Assembly: GCA_003327435.1 (NCBI GenBank)
Contig: QOQV01000014.1
Span: forward strand, 1 to 63,780
DNA: 63,780 nt
Reading direction: 5' to 3'
Source: Ignavibacteriota bacterium
GTDB lineage: Bacteria; Bacteroidota; Ignavibacteria; UBA10030; BY39
Positions 120 through 60,470 of this stretch are shown in pieces; position 1 is the first letter of the stretch, and every line of letters starts with the position of its first letter. The notes beneath the pieces were generated by a model. The model saw only the letters and a program-made list of their open reading frames with translations. It was not told the DNA's origin and ran no database searches. The position numbers and the translations under genes are program-made.

Positions 120-705
120 TATACCCAGAATGACAAGGGTGATTGTCATGTTGAGCGTTAGCGAAATATCTGACAATATTCAGTCAGATTCTTCACTCGT
201 CCGTCTACCGACGGACTCGTTAAGAATGACAAGGGTGATTGTCATCCTGATCCGCCTCTGGCGGAGAAGGATCTGACAACACGGCCATTGTCATGTTGAG
301 CGAAGCGAAACATCTGTCATTAACTCCTGAGCGTTAGCGAAACATCTGGCAGTGCTTCAATCAGATTCTTCGTTCGTCTGTCATTCGACGGACTCACACA
401 GGAAGAAGACTGTAATTGTCATGCTGAGCGTAGCGAAGCATCTGACATATTTGTTGATTTCCTTTGCGCTCTTTGCGATCTTTGCGAGAAAAACAAGAAG
501 CGAATCGGCTTTCCTGTCATGTTGAGCGTTAGCGAAACATCTGTCATTAACTCCTGAGCGAAGCGAAACATCTGACAGTGCTTCAGTCAGATTCTTCGTT
601 CGTCCGTTTACCAACGGACTCTCTCAGAAAGACAGTCGGCAGGTCATGCTGAGCGTTAGCGAAGCATCTGACTAAAACTACTGAGCGTTAGCGAAGCATC
701 TGACT
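120..705. repeat. Dispersed hairpin-repeat block, copy 1
   Basis: About nine copies of a 30-nt motif of the form GTCATGCTGAGCG-TAGCGAAGCATCTGAC are interspersed with a second motif, GATTCTTCG-TCGTCCGT...ACGGAC. Both fold as hairpins. Outer stems of the first motif vary in a compensated way: ATGCT/AGCAT (421-441, 646-667), ATCCT/AGGAT (244-272), ATGTT/AACAT (293-313, 519-540) and ATGTT/AATAT with a G.U pair (148-169). The second motif varies likewise: GTCCGTC/GACGGAC (199-216), GTCTGTC/GACGGAC (376-393), GTCCGTT/AACGGAC (602-619). One copy carries a 15-nt mini-hairpin at 251-265 in its tip. Bases 571-652 recur inverted at 60356-60437 with one mismatch. Confidence 0.85.
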
Positions 706-41990: not shown

Positions 41991-43101
41991 TATTTCAAGT
42001 TTTCTGTATGATAAGAGTCTGGAAATTTATCATCTTATAAAGATAGAATTCTTGAGTTTAGATAGATAATAAAAGAATAAAAATATGAAGGGTAATCAAT
42101 TGTATTGATTGCCCTTTTTAATTGTTACTGTGTGATTCTCAGCCAGAGGCTGATGCGCCACTGGTGCAGAACCTGCGAGCATTAATTGAAAGAAGACTTC
42201 TTATTAAAGTTGTTTAACAAAAGCCTTGTTGTTAGGAACTTACATTGTAATAAAATGTGAGTGGACGCTGCGGGATTCTCAGCCAGAGGCTGATGCGCCA
42301 CTGGTGCAGAACCTGCGAGCATTAATTGAAACCAGACTTCTTATTAAAGTCGTTTAACAAAAGCCTTGTTGTTAGGAACTTACATTGTAATAAAATGTGA
42401 GTGGACGCTGCGGGATTCTCAGCCAGAGGCTGATGCGCCACTGGCGCAGAACCTGCGAGCATTAATTGAAACCAGGCTTCTTATTAAAGTCATTTAACAA
42501 AAGCCTTGTTGTTAGGAACTTACATTGTAATAAAATATTAGTGGACGCTGCGGGATTCTCAGCCGGAGGCTGATGCGCCATTGGCGCAGAACCTGTGAAC
42601 ATTAATTGAAAGAAGACTTCTTATTAAAGTCGTTTAACAAAAGCCTTGTTGTTAGGAACTTACATTGTAATAAAATATTAGTGGACGCTGCGGGATTCTC
42701 AGCCAGAGGCTGATGCGCCACTGGCGCAGAACCTGCGAGCATTAATTGAAAGAAGACTTCTTATTAAAGTTGTTTAACAAAAGCCTTGTTGTTAGGAACT
42801 TACATTGTAATAAAATATTAGTGGACGCTGCGGGATTCTCAGCCGGAGGCTGATGCGCCATTGGCGCAGAACCTGTGAACATTAATTGAAAGAAGACTTC
42901 TTATTAAAGTTGTTTAACAAAAGCCTTGTTGTTAGGAACTTACATTGTAATAAAATATTAGTGGACGCTGCGGGATTCTCAGCCGGAGGCTGATGCGCCA
43001 CTGGCGCAGAACCTGCGAGCATTAATTGAAAGAAGACTTCTTATTAAAGTTGTTTAACAAAAGCCTTGTTGTTAGGAACTTACATTGTAATAAAATGTGA
43101 G
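41991..43101. other. Gene-free region holding a terminator and the 140-bp tandem array
   Basis: No coding region is visible. About 100 AT-rich bases and a terminator follow the beta-helix gene; the rest is the seven-unit array that abuts tRNA-Val. Confidence 0.85.
42088..42120 (+). terminator. Intrinsic terminator after the beta-helix gene
   Basis: AAGGGTAATCAA (42088-42099) pairs with TTGATTGCCCTT (42105-42116) over 12 positions with one G.U, 5-nt loop, followed by T. Confidence 0.88.
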
Positions 43102-43113
43102 TGGACGCTGCGG
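42134..43113. repeat. Seven-unit 140-bp tandem array derived from the tRNA-Val 3' end
   Basis: Seven head-to-tail units of exactly 140 bp start at 42134, 42274, 42414, 42554, 42694, 42834 and 42974, differing at only a few positions. Each junction reads GTGGACGCTGCGG-GATTC and then GAACCTGCGA, which is the 3' part of the tRNA-Val gene seen from the plus strand (43101-43127). In every unit a 30-bp insert splits GATTC from GAACC. The insert is two abutting hairpins, TCAGCC-AGA-GGCTGA and TGCGCC-ACT-GGCGCA. Loops vary (AGA or GGA; ACT or ATT); units 1 and 2 carry GGTGCA in the second arm. Other inverted repeats per unit are TTACATTGTAA and AACAA-AAGCC-TTGTT. No ORF or clear promoter is seen. Confidence 0.95.
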
Positions 43114-43176
43114 GATTCGAACCTGCGACCTCCGCCTTGTAAGGGCGGCGCTCTGAACCAACTGAGCTAAGCGTCC
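43102..43176 (-). tRNA. tRNA-Val (TAC)
   Basis: A complete cloverleaf of 75 nt on the minus strand: acceptor GGACGCT/AGCGTCC with discriminator A, D arm GCTC/GAGC, anticodon stem CCGCC/GGCGG with loop CTTACAA (anticodon TAC), T loop TTCGAAT. The T stem GCAGG/CCCGC has an A-C mismatch in the middle (51-63). CCA is not encoded. The 3' end lies at the array boundary and is the source of the repeat. Confidence 0.95.
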
Positions 43177-60189: not shown

Positions 60190-60470
60190 AGTAGCTTCAT
60201 CTTCAAACGGAGAGCGAAGAACCTCACTGAATCATAGTTATATAATTCGCTAACGCTCGTGGTTTATAATCAGAGCCTTTACTTCGTTCAGGATGACAAT
60301 CGCAGTATTGTCAGATGCTTCTCCGCCAGAGGCGGACAGGTCCGCCAGAGGCGGATCAGCATGACCTGCCGACTGTCTTTCTGAGAGAGTCCGTTGGTAA
60401 ACGGACGAACGAAGAATCTGAATGAAGCACTGTCAGAGGTTTCACTGAAGCTCAGCATGACAGGAAACAA
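60190..60470. repeat. Dispersed hairpin-repeat block, copy 2 (inverted)
   Basis: Same repeat families as at 120-705 but on the other strand. Bases 60356-60437 match 571-652 in reverse complement at 81 of 82 positions. One hairpin has outer stem ATGCT/AGCAT (60315-60319 with 60358-60362) and a tip made of two 15-nt mini-hairpins, TCCGCC-AGA-GGCGGA at 60322-60336 and 60341-60355, joined by CAGG. Other copies are more decayed. Confidence 0.85.

Follow-up and report, generated by a model that had tools for sequence, protein, structure and literature searches.

A 30-bp back-to-back hairpin pair, probably mobile, in bacterial genomes and its distinction from the exchangeable tips of REP-like palindromes

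RAYT/REP elements and the non-autonomous elements of the IS200/IS605 type have paired hairpins, cause no target duplication and show a heterodimer preference. In Escherichia coli, the tyrT locus has an intact tRNA gene and, behind it, tandem units in which the 3' end of the tRNA is included. The CGTC/TGTC super-family of REPs was reported in Bacteroidetes and Chlorobi among others; according to that study, several loop types coexist in it without a known dedicated transposase, most tails of the CGTC type, though not all, fit CCA, loops of other lengths occur in some species, and REP dimers show a heterodimer preference (PMC3733652). Mitochondrial double-hairpin elements (RHE) of fungi and sponges are described as tiny hairpins that stand alone or form tandem doubles (blue15 is the name of a type from sponges); they are found in intergenic regions, rRNA and coding DNA without frameshift, and are patchy between relatives (PMC2800124). 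Bacterial stem-loop families, some with double hairpins, have also been surveyed with tRNAs masked (PMC2267715). In open-access PMC text, we found no description of bacterial 30-bp double-hairpin elements, nor of a recurrent structure behind many tRNA genes, such as those described here.

The window, i.e. the whole 63,780-nucleotide stretch analysed, is contig 9 of genome G000 (2.63 Mb, 23 contigs), and the whole analysis is based on assemblies. An earlier note had grouped its 15-nt hairpins, with 6-bp arms and a 3-nt loop, into one family. That observation covers two different things: single hairpins forming the tips of palindromes, and a 30-bp back-to-back pair.

Single hairpins as tips of REP-like palindromes

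Perfect 6-3-6 hairpins of any sequence number 49 in the window, against a mean of 31.65 and a maximum of 42 in 100 runs of a first-order Markov simulation. Those with a GCC/GGC core number 15 (simulated mean 0.02, maximum 1), and there are five back-to-back pairs against none simulated. Across G000, TCCGCCNNNGGCGGA occurs at 34 places and its reversed control at none. The individual hairpins were all located (Table 1), namely TCCGCC-TCT-GGCGGA, the two copies of TCCGCC-AGA-GGCGGA, and the pair TCAGCC-[A/G]GA-GGCTGA plus TGCGCC-A[C/T]T-GGCGCA in all seven units of the 140-bp array. The statement that all arms are perfect was slightly wrong, because two of the seven second hairpins of the array (units 1 and 2, ending GGTGCA) carry a mismatch. 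Three of the 15 GCC/GGC-core hairpins lie outside the array, and all three are palindrome tips.

Table 1. Coordinates of palindrome units, hairpins and tRNA features in the window; for array units, the start is that of the first hairpin.
Feature	Position	Strand
REP-like palindrome unit, plain tip GCGTTAGC	146..171	+
REP-like palindrome unit TCATCCTGA-tip-GAAGGATCT	242..274	+
Single mini-hairpin TCCGCC-TCT-GGCGGA, tip of the 242..274 unit	251..265	+
REP-like unit, tip GCGAAGC	291..315	+
REP-like unit, tip GCGTAGC	419..443	+
REP-like unit, tip GCGTTAGC	517..542	+
REP-like unit, tip GCGTTAGC; flank nearly identical to that of the 60313-60364 unit	644..669	+
140-bp-unit array; each unit a tRNA-Val 3' end copy with the 30-bp double hairpin in the T loop	42134..43118	-
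Double hairpin, array unit 1; one mismatch in second hairpin	42139..42168	.
Double hairpin, array unit 2; one mismatch in second hairpin	42279..42308	.
Double hairpin, array unit 3, between GGGATTC and GAACCTGCG	42419..42448	.
Double hairpin, array unit 4	42559..42588	.
Double hairpin, array unit 5	42699..42728	.
Double hairpin, array unit 6	42839..42868	.
Double hairpin, array unit 7	42979..43008	.
Intact tRNA-Val (TAC); supplies empty site GGTTC-GAATCC	43101..43176	-
REP-like unit; tip of two TCCGCC hairpins, direct orientation, 4-nt spacer (60322-60336, 60341-60355)	60313..60364	-

The palindromes have the format TCAT-N-YTGA-tip-GAAR-N'-ATCT, in which TCCGCC-NNN-GGCGGA is an exchangeable tip. 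When the contexts of all 34 TCCGCCNNNGGCGGA places were read, 31 proved to be TGA-tip-GAA palindromes, the others being a lone copy on contig C16, one in a 23S rRNA gene and one in a CRISPR array. The tip-blind pattern TCATNYTGAN{5,35}GAARNATCT gave 118 places (54 + 64) in G000 and none in the control. Among the matches listed, at least one (C8:22892) has no hairpin tip, and 70 non-redundant units were compared; the pair beside their tip is G-C in 30, C-G in 27, T-A in 10 and another in 3. The CGTC type has a stem of 8-9 bp with a 4-5 nt loop, loops of other lengths being reported for some species. The tips of these listed units measure 7-8 nt in 40 and 15-34 nt in 30. The long tips comprise 13 single TCCGCC hairpins, seven doubles with CCTG and ten GTCCGTY tips. 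The sister tips GCGTTAGC and GCGAAGC reported before are indeed present, and ACGAAGT, GCGCCAGC and ACGA-GTCCGTY...-GAGT were found in addition. The GCGAAGC mini-hairpin is known for extra stability, which the DNA energy model, assigning zero stability to GAGCGAAGCGA, did not show.

Different tips sit on near-identical flanks of about 70 nt at window 644-669, window 60313-60364 and on C16. The suggestion that hairpins were inserted or swapped in is accordingly borne out in two separate ways, by exchange of tips in such arrays and by clean gain of the 30-bp pair (see below). The single tips would be alternative apical loops of CGTC-type palindromes, swapped between array units by recombination, and tip hairpins may have been duplicated by slippage. 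The idea of one family with one behaviour found no support: the hairpins at 60313-60364 form a direct 19-nt repeat with a CCTG spacer and not an inverted 30-bp element, and solitary 15-mers outside REPs lack the TY^RA target of the doubles, both sides matching in 1 of 65, so that the solitary 15-mer was rejected as a mobile unit. The single hairpins in REP-like arrays are a behaviour separate from the 30-bp pair.

The same-genus genome G001 has just two such palindromes. The pattern CTGATCCGCC-NNN-GGCGGAGAAG was found in at least 109 stretches, and 111 matches were read among those listed, some of them 30-bp doubles that fit the pattern by chance. The MAGs among these listed matches are named as Chloroflexi, Planctomycetota, Brocadiales, Omnitrophota, Bacteroidota, Patescibacteria-type groups, Ignavibacteria and others. 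At four loci (L116, L082, L083 and L073), the palindromes are nested, with CTGA...GAAG at several levels, as though some units had gone into the tips of others. In the 23S rRNA gene (L022, 500-514), a variable helix reads TCCGCCAGTGGCGGA and is probably a native helix of similar shape; this copy was not counted as an insertion because the Rfam consensus has the same helix.

As compared with the CGTC/TGTC REP description, the window palindromes are alike in their TGTC-AT start, short stem, coexisting loop types and absence of an adjoining dedicated transposase (PMC3733652). Most units read (T)GTCAT..., of which only the preceding G or TG is an independent observation of the tag, because TCAT and ATCT lay in the search pattern. 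They differ in that their tips reach 15, 26 and 34 nt and are hairpins themselves, and in their tail, which is CTGA (units end ATCTGA) and not an unpaired tail fitting CCA. No repeat-flanked RAYT gene was found: the two Y1_Tnp genes of G000 (L033 and L034, both 1501-1845) are flanked by a different palindrome family (GCTCC...GGAGC, GTCCCGTAGGGAC). GTAG REPs mobilised by RAYT do not correspond either, the units having no GTAG at the hairpin foot and no flanking RAYT. We class the window palindromes as REP-like and most likely of the CGTC type, their exchangeable tips being unusually large, and the single-hairpin palindromes as such look like a known kind, i.e. CGTC-type REPs with variable loops.

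Format and distribution of the 30-bp double hairpin

The element consists of two inverted, non-identical 15-mers TNNGCC-NNA-GGCN'N'A, back to back. Its general pattern TNNGCCNNNGGCNNATNNGCCNNNGGCNNA occurs at seven places in G000 (five in the window array, one in a CRISPR repeat and one at the start of contig 19) and at 60 forward places in 10 of 18 other genomes, with no hit for the reversed controls; none was found in the sister genomes G001 and G260. In viral contigs, 41 stretches match, many by chance with unpaired arms, and 14 non-redundant elements pass the arm and loop filter. Phage records contained no relative of two element-bearing viral contigs, and a search with the 30-mer gave only matches of 18 nt in phages and none in plasmids. 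Copies with more than one arm mismatch, a non-canonical loop pair, a duplicate 10+10 flank key or a position too near a contig end were dropped before the counts.

In 57 elements from patterns leaving NN free, 98.5% of the arm cells are paired. Double-change cells number 67 against 21.7 after shuffling (none of 500 shuffles reached 67), and the covariation score is 0.277 against 0.063 in shuffled sets. Four arm pairs of this set vary on both sides, G-U pairs are few and slid controls collapse. A occupies position 9, and T position 22, in at least 90% of sequences; on either strand the first hairpin therefore reads 5'-TNNGCC-NNA-GGCN'N'A, and the element amounts to one directional hairpin present in two inverted copies. 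The loops ACT and ATT of the second hairpins in the window array violate this NNA/TNN rule. The two hairpins were identical in none of 65 elements against 3.5 expected, and the loops in 2 against 10.4, a set from which loci of the biased CTGATCCGCC-NNN-GGCGGAGAAG-type search had been left out. It is as if a perfect 30-bp palindrome were avoided. DNA folding of three examples gave two separate hairpins of -11.3 to -13.1 kcal/mol.

An autonomous long version flanked by the same hairpins was sought among 67 rows of loci, part of them from patterns fixing one or more flanks; there was none, and the five candidates were pairs of neighbouring array units. In two genomes (L118, and L372, the ortholog of the L276 element), the first hairpin is enlarged to TCAGCCAAAGATCGCGAAGGACTCCTTTGGAGCTGA-like forms, so that a longer hairpin takes the place of its tip. 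Other paired hairpins, CGAGATTCCATCTCG-cgcg-CGATTTGGAAAATCG, lie 4 nt apart in a Bacteroidetes MAG (L143, 5928 and 6140).

Insertion sites and tRNA 3'-end arrays

The element is found in a CRISPR repeat, upstream of genes or between them, in frame in a deoC-like gene and in copies of tRNA T loops. The target is TY^RA. In 55 non-tRNA elements from pattern-only searches, position -2 is T in 41 and position -1 a pyrimidine (C or T) in 43; on the other side, position +1 is a purine (A or G) in 49 and position +2 is A in 43. Both sides read TY..RA in 25 against 1.16 expected, and neither side in 8. The claim rests on this set because the 97-row flank table also contained loci found with patterns in which one flank or both had been preset. 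At the insertion point, the flanking stem score was 7.32 against 7.48 at shifted positions in 68 non-tRNA doubles, and 12.04 against 8.02 in 26 T-arm-like cases. The statement that all these hairpins occupy the tips of larger stems hence applies to the REP-like palindromes and tRNA T loops and fails for the 68 non-tRNA doubles, for which hairpin-tip targeting as a general rule was rejected.

At several loci the element appears as a clean gain of 30 bp at TY^RA, without target duplication or loss. In a CRISPR repeat on contig 2 of G000, TGCGCCAGAGGCGCA-TCCGCCTCCGGCGGA stands between GTCTC and AATTCCACTATGG (GTCTC^AATTCC), and 18 uninterrupted exact repeats are present on the same contig. The repeat of this array (L026, 1-1001) is GTCTCAATTCCACTATGGTCCGATTCAAAC, and the interrupted one comes after an overlong spacer. 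At G040 C35:88984, 10 of 11 sister hits align through CTCCTGTTT^GAATC (CTCCTGTTT^GAATCAATTT or a close variant) without insert, and the remaining hit ends before the junction. In G201 C200, the 30 bp are an in-frame part of an open frame whose product we take to resemble deoxyribose-phosphate aldolase (deoC-like); both sister species have the frame without them (MNRQELIAKIIDDVL-SAVGGSASGG-KE...). The site of G201 C154 is empty in G461 (TATTCTC^AAGGGAAATGAACG) and holds a diverged element in G536. The earlier note had set clean gain against gradual mutation in related strains, and for the 30-bp pair these loci speak for clean gain.

Other comparisons gave mixed pictures. The C286 element of G201 is absent from two sisters, with some junction change; that of C67 is identical in G536 and rearranged in G461; that of C264 occurs in G461 with an enlarged first hairpin, and the G536 locus was aligned in part. 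At L256, two of ten sister hits (L320, and L314 with one nucleotide different) align well over the junction; L324 and L327 extend just to it, and the other six do not cross it. Some copies are inherited and not new, since the elements of L230, L240 and L276 are common to a sister species.

The element also recurs in partial tRNA 3' copies that lie behind intact tRNAs, where it separates the T-loop positions C56 and R57 (C56^R57). All seven T-arm loci examined first showed an intact tRNA (Val, Gly, Ser, Pro) and then a 3' copy with the element between the T-loop C and R; the junction is GGTTC^RAATCC, or GGTTC^GATTCC in L228, whose element itself has mismatches. The T-arm-plus-element pattern GGTTCTNNGCCN{3,33}GGCNNARAATCC was present in 22 of 391 genomes of the class, with no control hit. 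Of 36 non-redundant T-arm elements checked for a matching intact tRNA, 16 matched at 24/26 nt or more and 13 at 17-23, and seven had no tRNA in the stretch. Such trailer arrays follow tRNAs for Val, Ser, Thr, Ala, Pro and others. Their periods lie between 74 and about 140 bp, some spacings being wider (up to about 320 bp), and the hairpins may differ between adjacent units that contain the same tRNA copy. At the window-array locus of G001, about 110 bp separate the alignable gene end from tRNA-Val, and there is no array. T-arm elements make up 13 of 54 pattern-only whole-genome elements, a share that would far exceed what the 4-nt target alone would give. At gathering thresholds, Rfam gave no family but tRNA in the window and seven array or element loci.

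Possible origin of the pair and its nearest analogues

The 30-bp pair is carried by many bacteria and cleanly inserted into genes, spacers and copied tRNA ends. Its format, covariation, clean gain, target and T-loop recurrence, as documented above, are best explained if the pair is a mobile double-hairpin element and the single hairpins of the window a separate palindrome-tip behaviour, a reading that the sequence comparisons make probable. The folded strand would form two stable C-NNA-G triloop hairpins meeting end to end, i.e. a nicked dumbbell. It could be joined into single-stranded DNA at an exposed TY^RA, e.g. the loop of a folded T arm, and the 30-nt insert would then be copied by replication. 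Insertions in intact tRNAs may be lethal and be kept only where the tRNA 3' end is duplicated. A purely structure-guided single-strand target is weakened because the non-tRNA targets are not hairpin loops. A more specific version, which we put forward tentatively because its truth is rather doubtful, would make this DNA the smallest mobile element known in bacteria. It would spread from phylum to phylum in the folded double-hairpin state, and a dedicated machinery for single-strand DNA or for hairpin capping would join it at TY^RA. The T loops of tRNAs would be a natural hot spot, and the hairpin modules would vary freely because only the structure and the GCC/GGC core would be read.

Four other origins were weighed. 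The pair could be the scar of a blunt double-strand break at TY^RA, with one 15-nt hairpin adaptor added to each 3' end before joining. Of the rivals we rank this first, since it gives the most direct account of the inverted pair: it would explain inverted, non-identical hairpins, separate arms, the absence of duplication, a symmetric target, and the presence of doubles and not singles at that target. It has, however, no known adaptor source or enzyme, and arm pairs do not assort at random (mutual information of 0.436, compared with 0.149, in a partly pattern-biased set), so that we regard it as unlikely. Mobilisation of minimal REP dimers in trans by a Y1 transposase of the RAYT or IS200 type would fit the two hairpins, the lack of target duplication, the heterodimer preference described for REP dimers (PMC3733652), and the two Y1_Tnp genes of G000. 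Yet element-rich G173 (11 copies, 99% complete) and G281 (7 copies, 97%) have no Y1_Tnp match, which contradicts it for PF01797. Moreover, among 18 comparison genomes in which elements are absent or were not seen, 16 have Y1_Tnp (G028 and G063 have none; the match in G060 is below the family cut-off); six of the 18 were searched with the 30-bp pattern, and the rest are empty for other patterns including T-arm-plus-element. With the target symmetric and the palindromes beside the G000 genes of another family, this origin appears quite unlikely.

Array units do exchange hairpins, and the direct CCTG doubles look like slippage, as would be expected if pairs arose in place by replication template switching or slippage and were homogenised in arrays without any mobile element. 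Yet the same 30-bp format is found at single-copy sites that are unrelated to each other and for which relatives have the exact empty site, and the core is fixed in distant genomes, which makes such an origin very improbable for the pair. It is just as hard to believe that the hairpins are functional RNA structures (for processing, termination or as decoys) under selection, chiefly behind tRNAs. The recurring trailer arrays behind so many tRNAs are in line with it, but 41 of the 54 pattern-only whole-genome copies lie outside T arms, one copy is inside a coding frame, the few G-U pairs are at varying positions, and Rfam recognised nothing but tRNA.

Should the pair indeed be mobile, bacteria would have a mitochondria-like class of ultra-small inserts able to get into reading frames, the repeats of CRISPR arrays and copies of tRNAs, and the way in which double-hairpin elements move, a long-open question, could be tested in culturable hosts. 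Like RAYT/REP and IS200/IS605 non-autonomous elements, it has paired hairpins, no target duplication and a preference for heterodimers; it differs from them in its symmetric target and in having no Y1 gene in two element-rich genomes. The arrays share with the tyrT repeats of E. coli an intact tRNA followed by tandem units including its 3' end, and differ in having a 30-bp double hairpin in each T-loop copy. The nearest analogue is the mitochondrial double-hairpin element, likewise a short double hairpin gained at sites empty in relatives. The bacterial pair differs in its strict 15+15 inverted format, GCC-NNA-GGC core, TY^RA target and tRNA T-loop copies, and it is not filed as a member because it is found in bacterial genomes and contigs. 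The pair would thus resemble a mitochondrial double-hairpin element in behaviour.
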